Shown here piece after piece: positions 4,152-7,901 of a DNA stretch of 35,254 nucleotides. Positions within the stretch are counted from its first letter, which is position 1. Each line of letters starts with the position of its first letter. The stretch is from Paracoccaceae bacterium (GTDB lineage: Bacteria; Pseudomonadota; Alphaproteobacteria; Rhodobacterales; Rhodobacteraceae). The stretch covers positions 1 to 35,254 of the forward strand of contig REER01000052.1 in the NCBI GenBank assembly GCA_007694945.1, read 5' to 3'. The translations under genes were made by a program, and so were the position numbers. The notes under the pieces were generated by a model. It saw nothing but the letters and a program-made list of their open reading frames with translations. It did no database searches and was not told the DNA's origin.

Positions 4152-5597
4152 TCACCCCAACCCCACAAACCCCGCCACGCCTAGCGCCAGTGCGGCGCCC
4201 ACGCTCAGGATATTGCGCGTGCGGGCGCGGTCCTGGCGCGAACGGGCGCTGCCGGCATAATCGAAGCGTTCATAGACGACATGGCGCATCGGCATACCCA
4301 GATCGAGCAGCGTGTCCGACACCACCACCACCATCGGCCCCGGCCCGCAGATCAGAGCGCGCGCGGTCGTCGCGTCGAGCCCGTCGAGCATCTCGGCCAG
4401 CCGCTCGCGCGTCAGCCGCCCCTGCAGCACATCGCCTTCGACCGGCCCGTCCTCGCTGAGCAGCCACAGATTCAGGTCCAGCGTCTCCATGGCTGCGTGA
4501 ATCTCGTCGAGACAGGCGAAATTCGCGGGCTGGCCGACGGCATAGGCGAGCCTTATGGGACGGGTTTCACCGCGCGTGATACAATCTCGCAGGATGCCGA
4601 TCAGCGGCGCGATCCCCACCCCGCCTCCGATCAGCAGGAGCGCTTCGCCCCCCTGCGCCTCGAGCGTGAATTCGCCATAGGGCCCGTCAATGCCGATCAC
4701 GCGCCCCTCGGGCAAGGTGCCGATCTGGTCGGTGAAATCGCCCGCCTCCTTGATCAGCAGGCTCAGCCCCTCTCGCCGCGGGCTGTCCGAGATTGAGAAC
4801 GGATGGTCGAAGAGCGGGAAGCGGCGCTTGCCCTCACTCATCCAGACGAATTGCCCGGCGTGATAGGGCAGGGGTGGCGTGCCGGGGTCGGGCTGGATGT
4901 CGAGCTCCCACATGCGATCGGCGCGTTTTGTGACGGCGGCCAGCCGCCAGGGTCGGTGATGCAGCCGCCACCAGCGCCAGCCATAGAGCACGGTCATGAC
5001 CGCCAGCACCGCCAGCGCCACCAGCCCCCAGAACCCCGCCAGCACCCCCTGTGCGCTGAACCGCCCCACAGCCACGGCGTGATGCAGCCCGCCCAGCACC
5101 GCGGTCAGCCCGAGCAGGAGATGGACCGCGCGCCAGGCTTCATAGGGCCAGGGCAGCAGGTCGCGCAGCACCGAAGAGAGGATGAGCAGCACCAGCGCGC
5201 CAAGGGCCACGACACCGCTGAGATAGGCGGGGTCGGTGAGGTAGAAGTGCAGGCGAATCCAGCCCAGTTCCGGGTCATCCATCCATGTCGGCAGCACATA
5301 GGCCAGCGGGTGCAGCACCAGCGCGAGCGCGACCCAGAGCGCAGCGATCTTGTGGAAGGCCATGATCTTGTCGATGCCAAGCCGCCCGGAGATACCTTCA
5401 AACCGCCCCGAGGTCACGAATTGCACCGCCATCCCCCAGAGCGCGATCAGCCCCATCGCTGCAGCGGCCAGTTCCCACGGGTCGGCGGGGGCAACCGATT
5501 GCGTAAGTGCGAGAGCCAGCGGCAGGAAAGCGGTGAGCAGATAGGCTGCTGCCAGAGCAGGGCCGGAGAGGCGGGGAAGGGCGGGTTGTGCTTGCAT
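4152..5597 (-). CDS. Ferric-reductase-like membrane flavoprotein (FAD/NAD(P)H oxidoreductase)
   Basis: Membrane electron-transfer protein of 481 residues. The first ~210 residues hold about six membrane segments of the ferric-reductase/NOX type, with histidines at 82, 96, 159, 172 and 173 as candidate b-heme ligands. A cytoplasmic ferredoxin-reductase module follows: FAD-binding HPFSIS (265-270) preceded by YHAGQFVWM, then the NAD(P)-binding GGGVGIAPL (324-332) and ALICGPGPM. An unusual extra hydrophobic helix closes the C-terminus after the NAD domain. It should carry electrons from NAD(P)H across the membrane. The divergent neighbour encodes a pentaheme cytochrome, a plausible periplasmic partner, and a shared FNR-type box suggests oxygen control. 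The acceptor is unknown. Confidence 0.85.
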   Translation of the reverse strand: MQAQPALPRLSGPALAAAYLLTAFLPLALALTQSVAPADPWELAAAAMGLIALWGMAVQFVTSGRFEGISGRLGIDKIMAFHKIAALWVALALVLHPLAYVLPTWMDDPELGWIRLHFYLTDPAYLSGVVALGALVLLILSSVLRDLLPWPYEAWRAVHLLLGLTAVLGGLHHAVAVGRFSAQGVLAGFWGLVALAVLAVMTVLYGWRWWRLHHRPWRLAAVTKRADRMWELDIQPDPGTPPLPYHAGQFVWMSEGKRRFPLFDHPFSISDSPRREGLSLLIKEAGDFTDQIGTLPEGRVIGIDGPYGEFTLEAQGGEALLLIGGGVGIAPLIGILRDCITRGETRPIRLAYAVGQPANFACLDEIHAAMETLDLNLWLLSEDGPVEGDVLQGRLTRERLAEMLDGLDATTARALICGPGPMVVVVSDTLLDLGMPMRHVVYERFDYAGSARSRQDRARTRNILSVGAALALGVAGFVGLG

Positions 5598-5620
5598 GAT
5601 ACTCGGGATCAGGTCATCCT

Positions 5621-5630
5621 TGAGATAGTT
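5621..5630 (-). promoter_or_regulatory. Possible -10 region of the reductase gene
   Basis: On the minus strand AACTATCTCA (complement of 5621-5630) contains a -10-like ACTATC. The FNR-type box centre (5660.5) would lie near -41.5 from a start point around 5619, the position used by activating FNR proteins. Weak sequence match; the support is the geometry. Confidence 0.3.
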
Positions 5631-5653
5631 TTGTCAAGAAAACTGCATATGCC

Positions 5654-5667
5654 TTGATCCGGGTCAA
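5654..5667. promoter_or_regulatory. FNR/FnrL-type box between reductase and pentaheme cytochrome genes
   Basis: TTGATCCGGGTCAA matches the FNR consensus TTGAT-N4-ATCAA at nine of ten conserved positions. Its centre is about 63-66 bp from the start codon of each divergent gene, so one site could activate both. FNR/FnrL proteins switch on genes when oxygen is low. Confidence 0.7.
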
Positions 5668-5726
5668 TGGTGGAGGGCCCTTGTTGTCCTAGCCTGTCGG
5701 GATCATCTGCCCGCATGGAGGACATG

Positions 5727-6803
5727 ATGCGCCTGCTTTTCATCCCGCTTATCGCATGTCTGGCCTTTCCGGCCTCGGCCCTGCGCGCCGAGGAGGGGCT
5801 GGAGGGGCTCGAACGTCTGATCGCTGCCTGGCTCGACTCGCCGCATGGCGATTATCAGTCGCTCTCCTTCACTTATTGGAACGAACAGGGCGAAGTGCCC
5901 GAAAATTGTGCGATGTGTCATTCCGAGACAGGCTTTATGGATTTTCTGGGCGTTGGTGGACTGACAGCCGGCGGCGTCGATCATCCCGGCACGATCAACA
6001 CGGTCATCGGGTGCGCGTCATGTCACACCGCCGAGGCGCATGCGCTGGATGCGGTGACCTTCCCCTCCGGGATCGAGGTGGCGGAGCTGGGGTCTTCGGC
6101 GACCTGCATGGTCTGTCATCAGGGGCGCCAGTCGAGCGATCAGGTAGCGGAACGGGTTGCGGGCAAGGCGCTGGATCAGGTCTCGGATGAACTGGCCTTC
6201 CTGAACATCCATTACGCGGCCTCGGCGGCGACGATGCTCGGATCGGTCGCGCGGCCGGGCTATCAGTATGAAGGGCGGTCCTATGCGGGCCAATTCATGC
6301 ATGTGCCGGGTGCCGATACCTGTGTCGCCTGCCACGAGCCGCATAGCACGCAGGTCGAACCCGATGGCTGTCTGGCCTGCCATCGTGGCGTGGAAGAGAT
6401 GCGCGACATCCGCACCCAGCATCAGGATTTTGCGGGCACCGGGGATCGTTCGGGTGGAATCCATGCTGAGATCATGGCGCTGCATGGCCAGTTGCTGGAT
6501 GCGATCCGCCTTTATGCTGTAGAGGTGGCGGGCACGCCAATCGCCTATTTCAGCGGCTTCCCCTATTTCTTCAACGACCCGACCGGGACTGGGGATCTGC
6601 CCTCTGAACTGGCCACGCGCGACAACCGCTATCAGAGCTGGACACCGCGCCTGTTGAAGGCGGCGTATAATTATCAGGTCGTGGCCAAGGACCCGGGCGG
6701 ATATGTCCATAACCCGCGCTACATGCTGCAGCTCTTGCATGATTCGCTGGCCGATCTGGCCGAGACGGTGGAGATTGATATCTCGCGGATCATCCGGCCA
6801 TGA
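5727..6803 (+). CDS. Secreted pentaheme cytochrome c
   Basis: Periplasmic multiheme c-type cytochrome of 358 residues. A signal peptide (MRLLFIPLIACLAFPASALRA) is followed by five CXXCH heme-attachment sites: CAMCH (61-65), CASCH (96-100), CMVCH (127-131), CVACH (199-203) and CLACH (215-219). The ~140-residue C-terminal part has no CXXCH, but has the pattern AAYNYQVVAKDPGGYVHNPRY often seen near the end of multiheme cytochromes. GGAGG sits five bases before the chosen ATG; an in-frame ATG immediately before it and longer starts are less likely. It is divergent from the membrane flavoprotein with an FNR-type box between them, which suggests a low-oxygen electron-transfer pair. I cannot assign a named enzyme; it is not NrfA-like in its visible motifs. 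Confidence 0.88.
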   Translation: MRLLFIPLIACLAFPASALRAEEGLEGLERLIAAWLDSPHGDYQSLSFTYWNEQGEVPENCAMCHSETGFMDFLGVGGLTAGGVDHPGTINTVIGCASCHTAEAHALDAVTFPSGIEVAELGSSATCMVCHQGRQSSDQVAERVAGKALDQVSDELAFLNIHYAASAATMLGSVARPGYQYEGRSYAGQFMHVPGADTCVACHEPHSTQVEPDGCLACHRGVEEMRDIRTQHQDFAGTGDRSGGIHAEIMALHGQLLDAIRLYAVEVAGTPIAYFSGFPYFFNDPTGTGDLPSELATRDNRYQSWTPRLLKAAYNYQVVAKDPGGYVHNPRYMLQLLHDSLADLAETVEIDISRIIRP

Positions 6804-6937: not shown

Positions 6938-7867
6938 TCAGTCTAGGGCAGCGAGGATGGCGCGGGCGCGGGCACTGTCGGCATCCATCTGCGTGATCAG
7001 CGCGTCGAGCGTATCGAAGCGAATCTCGTCGCGCAGATGATCGATCAGGGCCACCGAGAGATGCGTGCCATAGAGATCGCCTGTGAAATCGAAGAGGAAG
7101 GTTTCGAGATTGGGCAGGTTCTTGCCGAACATGGGTCGTACCCCGAGCGACGCCACGCCTCCATGTCGTCCGGCATGGGGGCCAGAGAGGATGTCGACCT
7201 GCACCACATAGACCCCGAAGCGCGGCGGGTGCAGCCCGGCGATGGACATGTTCGCGGTCGGATAGCCCAGTTCGCGCCCGCGTTTCGCACCATGCAGGAC
7301 TTCGCCCTCAATCCTGTGCCAGTGACCCAGCATCGCGGCCGCGTCGCGGGGGCGGCCCTCGCTGAGCGCAGTGCGGATGGCCGTGGAGGAGAAGACGCGG
7401 TCGCCATTGGCCAGCAGCGGCGCAACCGTGACCTCGAAGCCGAGTTGCGCGCCAAGGGTGACAAGGTCCGACGCGGTGCCGAGGCGGCCCTTGCCGAAGC
7501 AGAAATCCGCTCCGACCACGACATGGCGCAGCCCGAGCCCCTCTGCCAGGACCTCGCGCGCGAAGCGCTCGGCGCTCAGACCCGCCAGTGTCGCATCGAA
7601 GGGCAGTTCATGCAGCACGTTCGTCCCCAGCCGCGCCAAACGGTTAGCGCGCGCTTCGCGATTCATGAGCCGGAAAGGGGGGCTGTCGGGCGCGAAGAAC
7701 TCTCTCGGATGCGGCTCGAACGTGACGATACCCAGCGGCATATCGGGGCGGCGAGCCAAGTCGATCACGCGCTGATGGCCGCGATGCACACCGTCGAAAT
7801 TGCCAATCGCAGCCGAAGCGCCCTGCGCCTCGGCGGGCGTGGCGTGCCAGTGTCGTGTGATGCGCAT
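6938..7867 (-). CDS. ribF: Bifunctional riboflavin kinase / FAD synthetase
   Basis: Makes FMN from riboflavin and then FAD from FMN. The 309-residue protein has the usual two-domain layout. The N-terminal FMN adenylyltransferase domain carries AIGNFDGVHRGHQRVI near residue 20. The C-terminal riboflavin kinase domain carries the GYPTANM motif around residue 210. I start it at MRITRHWH because GAGGG lies just upstream; a longer frame adds 39 residues with no support. It lies 34 bases downstream of the maoC-type gene on the same strand, so the two are probably co-transcribed. Its flavin products serve, among others, the TrxB and the membrane flavoprotein encoded in this window. Confidence 0.95.
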   Translation of the reverse strand: MRITRHWHATPAEAQGASAAIGNFDGVHRGHQRVIDLARRPDMPLGIVTFEPHPREFFAPDSPPFRLMNREARANRLARLGTNVLHELPFDATLAGLSAERFAREVLAEGLGLRHVVVGADFCFGKGRLGTASDLVTLGAQLGFEVTVAPLLANGDRVFSSTAIRTALSEGRPRDAAAMLGHWHRIEGEVLHGAKRGRELGYPTANMSIAGLHPPRFGVYVVQVDILSGPHAGRHGGVASLGVRPMFGKNLPNLETFLFDFTGDLYGTHLSVALIDHLRDEIRFDTLDALITQMDADSARARAILAALD

Positions 7868-7901
7868 CTGCCCTCTATTGCGGGGCGGATGCGCCCCTTG
7901 C

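Follow-up and report, generated by a model that had tools for sequence, protein, structure and literature searches.

The window analyzed here is the whole 35,254-nucleotide stretch of contig REER01000052.1 from a Paracoccaceae bacterium whose draft genome comprises 145 contigs. An earlier note, made from the sequence of the window alone, had singled out two divergent open reading frames (ORFs), and both were confirmed in place. One encodes a 481-amino-acid membrane flavoprotein of the NADPH oxidase (NOX) type, and the other encodes an exported c-type cytochrome with five CXXCH heme motifs, called the pentaheme cytochrome below. Comparison of related sequences indicates that the pair is probably a low-oxygen, quinone-independent conduit that carries electrons from NAD(P)H to a periplasmic cytochrome and that has two interchangeable donor modules. 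A more specific proposal, which we put forward tentatively and consider nearly as apt to hold as to fail, is that low-oxygen alphaproteobacteria have a quinone-free NADH:periplasmic-cytochrome oxidoreductase in two nonhomologous forms around one pentaheme, exchanged about once in the sampled history. One form would be the outward half of an Na+-translocating NADH:quinone oxidoreductase (NQR) with an NqrB that has no return path to quinone, and the other would be the NOX-type flavocytochrome. We recognized no description of the pair, or of such an NqrB beside a pentaheme, in the open-licence PubMed Central literature, a search that left most subscription papers outside.

Two alternative partners and a shared promoter site

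A cytochrome match was present in 23 of 36 genomes of the genus, and these were the only matches in all 60 genomes searched. A flavoprotein ortholog adjoined the cytochrome on the same contig in 20 of the 23, including one genome (G022) with a stop inside the cytochrome, and this adjacency exceeds chance. In the remaining three, the locus reached a contig end (G001 and G030) or the cytochrome was a fragment with two stops (G009). G020 carried the flavoprotein near a contig start, without the cytochrome.

We found the cytochrome in 47 of 295 genomes of the family, at 48 loci. Twelve of these loci had an adjoining NOX-like gene, and 28 had an nqr operon whose nqrF gene lay no more than 9 kb away on the same contig; the limits were 1e-70 for the NOX-like gene and 1e-60 for nqrF, with weaker homologs uncounted. 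Cytochrome and donor gene lay on opposite strands in all 40 of these pairs. We also compared 85 loci with larger flanks, namely, the best 80 of at least 512 named loci plus five plasmids, a set that leans to window-like sequences and whose related members are not independent. It contained 50 NOX-type loci, 30 NQR-type loci, 1 locus cut by the contig, and 4 with neither donor. The pairs were divergent at 50 of 50 NOX-type and 26 of 30 NQR-type loci (76 of 80 together), and the cytochrome adjoined genes annotated as nqr, ApbE, and CBS on four of the five plasmids. A gene for an Na+/H+ exchanger was present at 10 of 30 NQR-type loci versus 1 of 50 NOX-type loci. We saw no conserved third gene in the 50 NOX-type loci, where, antisense frames aside, generic neighbors occurred in at most 5. 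The earlier note had asked whether the divergent pair is kept in relatives and whether either gene belongs to a known complex elsewhere. The pair is conserved (20 of 23 genus genomes, 12 family loci, and 50 of 85 larger-flank loci), but at 28 of the 48 family loci the cytochrome adjoins a variant NQR operon.

A tree of 94 cytochromes needed one change to account for the two partner types when all other labels were left out. NOX-type loci against all others required two changes, compared with a mean of 31.2 for shuffled labels, and 0 of 500 shuffles gave as few. The tree was built by a quick method, its root was not inferred, and it does not give the order of the partner types. The two types are not mutually exclusive, because one genome (G107) holds one NOX-type and one NQR-type locus. 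In two other genomes (G139 and G219), cytochrome and nqrF were on different contigs, and nqrF lay close to where its contig starts.

The promoter region of the pair contains TTGATCCGGGTCAA, an exact match to the FnrL-type pattern TTGATN4RTCAA and the sole one in the window (0.12 expected; at least one in 9 of 100 shuffles). The whole genome gave 32 strand matches to this pattern and none to a reversed control. It also encodes FnrL (NF045989, 449 bits against a cutoff of 300), with an FnrL-type site directly upstream of the gene. Among 20 stretches viewed around the other genomic sites, the adjacent genes were fnrL, hemN, and ccoG, together with genes for PPK2, a TldD protease, Usp, OmpA, and others, and some sites lay inside frames. 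When one mismatch was allowed, the site was present in 37 of 50 NOX-type promoters versus 2.9% of equal-length random stretches of the same loci and in 24 of 26 NQR-type promoters versus 5.9%, counts that overstate the number of independent events because the loci are related. The 26 promoters come from 30 loci, as L111, L130, L131, and L133 have another gene order and were left out. Of seven cytochromes without a donor, five had an exact upstream site, one had a site with one mismatch, and one (L154) had none. The best sites upstream of four canonical nqrA genes had one to three mismatches, and the three readable upstream regions of variant nqrA genes without a pentaheme had one mismatch each. 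Because its promoter holds an FnrL-type site, low oxygen is the likely setting of the pair.

The closest cytochromes among the best 80 named loci include those of Natronohydrobacter and Roseinatronobacter. A profile search of 385 genomes of the class gave three matches: one in the window genome itself, one in a member of the family, and a weak one (E value, 7e-4). That sample missed the rhizobial and halomonad holders of the cytochrome seen among the named loci. One NOX-type pair is in Billgrantia antri (L091), which we take to be a halomonad and hence a gammaproteobacterium, and this occurrence suggests transfer between classes.

Some loci depart from both arrangements. In G067 (L154:6863-10549), the pentaheme gene shares its operon with genes for a cytochrome b561 and a nine-heme cytochrome (Cytochrome_cB), possibly a third, quinol-linked donor. 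Cytochromes of a Defluviimonas-type clade (L051:8887-9990, L152, and L153) adjoin neither donor and keep an exact FnrL-type site upstream; on the Defluviimonas plasmid (L051), PepSY, cytochrome b, and ApbE genes are near the cytochrome. In G073 (L158, 995-8540), broken copies of the cytochrome and the variant nqr genes lie side by side, as if lost together, or possibly through sequencing error.

A variant NQR with an altered NqrB

NQR has been described as a loop in which electrons pass out to NqrC and return through NqrB to quinone. Matches to nqrF in the family at 1e-60 or better formed two groups, 41 at 675 to 711 bits and 35 at 352 to 518 bits. The cytochrome adjoined 28 of the 35 lower-scoring genes; 3 more (G139, G219, and the second match in G202) began at the end of a contig or close to it, and 4 were without the cytochrome. 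The outward leg appears intact in these variant operons. The Fe-S cysteines of NqrD, NqrE, and NqrF were kept in 28 of 28, and the residue of NqrC that carries flavin mononucleotide (FMN) was kept in 28 of 28 (26 Thr and 2 Ser).

NqrB differed. The threonine for FMN attachment was absent from 27 of 27 variant proteins, and of the riboflavin-site residues, N200 was lost in 20 and N203 in 15. G140 was lost in 26 (kept in 1) and G141 in 23 (kept in 4), all positions being numbered from an alignment; we take G140 and G141 to be the glycine pair that has been linked to quinone. The variant NqrB is annotated at 257 to 260 amino acids in four plasmid records, and its stop-to-stop frame does not exceed 320 amino acids in 22 of 28 operons. 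Four canonical NQRs fetched from the family had an NqrB of about 400 amino acids with the SGAT motif and kept all residues tested. Variant rows in the NqrB alignment were cut 95 residues before the FGG motif, and their empty N terminus there is by construction; L111 was left out (wrong frame), and L116 and L135 end before nqrB.

The portion of PMC9325719 available to us gives the electron order of the Vibrio cholerae enzyme as NADH, flavin adenine dinucleotide (FAD), 2Fe-2S, NqrC FMN, NqrB FMN, riboflavin, and ubiquinone; it also names residues of the riboflavin site and assigns the binding of quinone and of inhibitors to NqrA and the N terminus of NqrB. In the corresponding excerpt of PMC4014512, quinone binding is linked to a pair of glycines on a single NqrB helix. 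On the simplest reading of these residue patterns, the variant NQR would carry electrons as far as the periplasmic face, where its path would end. It resembles the V. cholerae-type Na+-NQR in having six nqr genes, often accompanied by apbE and a CBS-domain gene, and in the cofactor residues of the outward half. Unlike that enzyme, it has a short NqrB without the FMN attachment segment, has mostly lost the glycine pair and N200, and adjoins a pentaheme.

Two other systems are related by description. The MmcA-Rnf system of Methanosarcina also combines a complex of the NQR/Rnf type with an additional multiheme cytochrome, but it is archaeal and built on Rnf rather than NQR, and the part of PMC12174285 that we had mentions no NOX-type replacement. 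Related flavinylated systems and fusions that use one leg of the NQR electron path are described in the sections seen of PMC8238504 and PMC11334425. Those termed NQR/RNF-like fuse an NqrB/RnfD domain to an NqrF-type domain and are reported mainly from Actinobacteria and the Candidate Phyla Radiation (PMC8238504, same sections), whereas the variant is a whole operon with a stripped NqrB.

Proposed electron path, rival explanations, and possible acceptors

All five CXXCH motifs of the cytochrome were confirmed, and their ten cysteines and five histidines were invariant in 64 of 64 sequences. Five further histidines, H44, H166, H196, H210, and H332, were equally invariant, and the same ten histidines recurred in 69 rows; by sequence, ten would be enough for five bis-His hemes. 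The structure model was of high confidence (mean predicted local distance difference test score [pLDDT], 92.2), yet a fold search with it found no solved structure at an E value of 0.001 or less, the best being OcwA at 0.0095. Pfam Cytochrome_C7 matched a local part only (42.2 bits against a cutoff of 24.8), and Cytochrom_CIII fell slightly below its cutoff. The window cytochrome matched no NCBIfam model even at 1e-4, a level at which five models each matched 2 to 9 of the 64 members.

One alternative places the pentaheme in a wider NrfA group and makes it the terminal reductase, acting on a nitrogen, sulfur, or oxygen species with electrons from either donor. A profile of the 64 cytochromes matched NrfA (3ubr) with a whole-sequence E value of 2.8e-5, made up of three pieces of 10.4, 13.4, and -2.1 bits (the negative one C-terminal), none of which is significant singly. 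A nonaheme cytochrome came next in that search, at 1.6e-4, and the fold search listed octaheme nitrite reductase and NrfA at the nonsignificant E values of 1.9 and 6.0. The hallmark of NrfA is one lysine-ligated CXXCK heme. No CXXCK is present in the window cytochrome, where all five motifs are CXXCH, and there are exactly five further invariant histidines, enough to close five hemes. We regard a terminal reductase as unlikely, although it is the best placed of the alternatives. The cytochrome may have weak profile and fold similarity to the NrfA/OcwA multiheme proteins and perhaps belongs to that wider group, and it may hold a catalytic heme; it has no CXXCK and ten invariant histidines for five hemes, and the description that suits it best is a divergent cytochrome for electron transfer. 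In line with the earlier note, no terminal reductase lies beside the pair.

The flavoprotein had been described as ferric-reductase-like with FAD and NAD domains, and Pfam Ferric_reduct, FAD_binding_8, and NAD_binding_1 all scored above their cutoffs. An AlphaFold2 model (mean pLDDT, 91.1) had as its best Foldseek match the NADPH oxidase SpNOX (8qt6; E value, 4.8e-20; template modeling score, 0.80 by target length and 0.67 by query length). An alignment of the window sequence with 41 of 49 listed orthologs showed that H82, H96, H159, and H173 do not vary in any of the 42 rows and that 13 residues lie between the two histidines of each pair (H82/H96 and H159/H173); as judged from this alignment, the spacing is that of the two-heme NOX core. 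The modeled fold is thus of the NOX family. The statement that neither gene matches a named enzyme stood insofar as no NCBIfam model was above its cutoff for either protein, but the fold gives the flavoprotein a recognizable family. NOX proteins typically end in an aromatic residue. Here that terminal aromatic is missing, and about 34 residues follow YERFDY, ending in a helix predicted by the model at residues 454 to 480. This segment, the extra C-terminal membrane helix of the earlier note, was present in all 21 displayed rows of the 42-row alignment. The flavoprotein is like NADPH oxidases and SpNOX in its diheme membrane core and its FNR-type FAD/NAD domain and unlike them in the extra helix, the exported pentaheme partner, and the FnrL-type promoter site.

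A second alternative, slightly weaker than a terminal reductase, makes the flavoprotein a reductase of ferric iron or another metal for iron assimilation, with the cytochrome as an outer relay for metal reduction. The Ferric_reduct match fits it, as does the weak fold match to OcwA (E value, 0.0095), a cytochrome from the surface of a metal-reducing organism. Inspection by eye of the neighbors that recur at the 50 NOX-type loci, few of which were looked up by name, showed no iron or siderophore gene, and the promoter site is FnrL-like, no search for an iron-type box having been made. We consider it improbable, and more so that the flavoprotein is a true NOX producing periplasmic superoxide beside an unrelated or protective cytochrome. 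The SpNOX-like fold and heme spacing agree with superoxide production, but control by an FnrL-type site would be unexpected for an O2-reducing enzyme, and elsewhere an NQR replaces the NOX-like gene while the cytochrome and the site stay. To our knowledge, NQR is not an oxygen reductase.

In the conduit that we favor, the flavoprotein would take electrons from cytoplasmic NAD(P)H at low oxygen, pass them to FAD and then through two b hemes stacked across the membrane, and hand them over on the periplasmic side to the exported pentaheme, which would relay them to a periplasmic or extracellular acceptor. This matches the path from NAD(P)H through FAD and heme b to a periplasmic pentaheme drawn earlier, which remains plausible on the domain and motif evidence. 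In relatives with the variant NQR, electrons would move from NADH through FAD and 2Fe-2S of NqrF, 2Fe-2S of NqrD/E, and FMN of NqrC to the pentaheme. We infer direct transfer between the partners, its direction, and induction at low oxygen. Flow in the opposite sense, with the cytochrome collecting electrons from periplasmic oxidations and the membrane module making NAD(P)H, is the least probable alternative: one species of the genus, Natronohydrobacter thiooxidans, is a sulfur oxidizer to judge from its name, and an Na+ gradient could drive NQR backwards, but NOX-type proteins have no ion pump to pay for uphill reduction, and FnrL-type control better suits an electron outlet.

Several observations weigh against a conduit of this kind. 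Adjacency and shared regulation, as read from sequence, do not prove electron transfer. Among the NQR-type pairs, 4 of 30 depart from the divergent arrangement (two are parallel to the cytochrome gene and two are convergent), and 13 of 50 NOX-type promoters are without a close FnrL-type site. The cytochrome is without a nearby donor at 4 of the 85 loci and in G258, G179, and G147 of the family sample (L108 is the G258 contig), and G228 has a NOX-like homolog (38% identity) and no cytochrome. The variant nqrF is without an adjoining pentaheme in four genomes (G168, G304, G096, and G072, the last with a weak cytochrome match only). Where pentaheme-less variant operons could be viewed, one has a divergent EB_dh-type heme protein with one CXXCH in its place (L148:1367-2752), another has a divergent small tetraheme cytochrome (L151:1169-1510), L149 stops within nqrB, and L150 has no visible multiheme ORF; from L148 and L151, the acceptor may be exchanged too, and not the donor alone. 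The riboflavin site is partly kept in the variant NqrB, with T162 in 22 of 27 and an acidic residue at position 346 in 27 of 27. Finally, NosZ, searched with a model covering one NosZ type, was present in 10 of 40 cytochrome-positive versus 10 of 40 cytochrome-negative family genomes, and NapA was present in 5 of 40 (one below the family cutoff) versus 7 of 40. The positives comprised G139 and the 39 genomes in which a donor adjoins the cytochrome, and the negatives were hand-picked at roughly even steps. The window genome has neither a NosZ nor a NapA gene.

Because these two denitrification markers are not enriched, a general acceptor seems more likely, such as the cytochrome c pool and a cbb3 oxidase, a peroxidase, or an acceptor outside the cell. 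A gene for a diheme cytochrome c peroxidase (CCP_MauG; L178:1616-3201, contig C144 of the window genome) starts about 400 bp after another FnrL-type site, and its product might accept periplasmic electrons when oxygen is low.

If the proposal is true, the variant would be a natural NQR that has an outward leg and has lost most of its return leg, which would let one ask which leg pumps sodium. The exchange with NOX would imply that selection preserves the supply of NAD(P)H electrons for the pentaheme and not the pump. Bacterial NOX-type proteins would gain a role other than superoxide production, and marine and soda-lake Rhodobacteraceae, with some rhizobia, would have a quinone-independent respiratory branch.

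Features of the window and neighboring genes

The coordinates of the pair are collected in Table 1. The earlier note had the cytochrome as secreted and with five CXXCH sites, and both points stood, the signal peptide as judged by eye. The mechanical ORF start at 5667 was moved, as translation most likely begins at 5724 or 5727, because a GGAGG lies directly upstream and a signal-peptide-like N terminus follows, both judged by eye.

Table 1. Features of the flavoprotein-cytochrome locus (window coordinates)
Feature	Position	Strand	Remarks
NOX-type transmembrane NAD(P)H reductase, 481 aa	4152..5597	minus	Diheme b core, FAD and NAD domains, extra C-terminal helix
Extra C-terminal helix of flavoprotein, residues 454-480 (predicted)	4158..4238	minus	After conserved YERFDY closing the FNR-like domain
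FnrL/DNR-type site, TTGATCCGGGTCAA	5654..5667		Centre 63.5 bp from flavoprotein ATG (5597) and from cytochrome ATG (5724)
Exported pentaheme c-type cytochrome	5724..6803	plus	Start by eye: GGAGG at 5717-5721, signal-peptide-like N terminus
Probable signal peptide of cytochrome	5724..5789	plus	Judged by eye
CXXCH heme motif 1, CAMCH	5907..5921	plus	
CXXCH heme motif 2, CASCH	6012..6026	plus	
CXXCH heme motif 3, CMVCH	6105..6119	plus	
CXXCH heme motif 4, CVACH	6321..6335	plus	
CXXCH heme motif 5, CLACH	6369..6383	plus	

A candidate frame for a second NQR in the window genome (contig C102) was rejected; it lies among genes that by eye resemble phenylacetate degradation genes, and no nqrF was above the cutoff. 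The tetR gene of the window was matched in 0 of 85 related loci at 1e-20, and ribF (riboflavin kinase/FAD synthetase; 6938-7900), convergent and downstream of the cytochrome, was matched in only 2 of 85. A gene for the polyhydroxybutyrate synthase PhaC, absent from the window, lies just downstream of the cytochrome at 8 of 50 NOX-type loci and at L066 (e.g., L063:5196-6998); polyhydroxybutyrate synthesis is another reductant sink.

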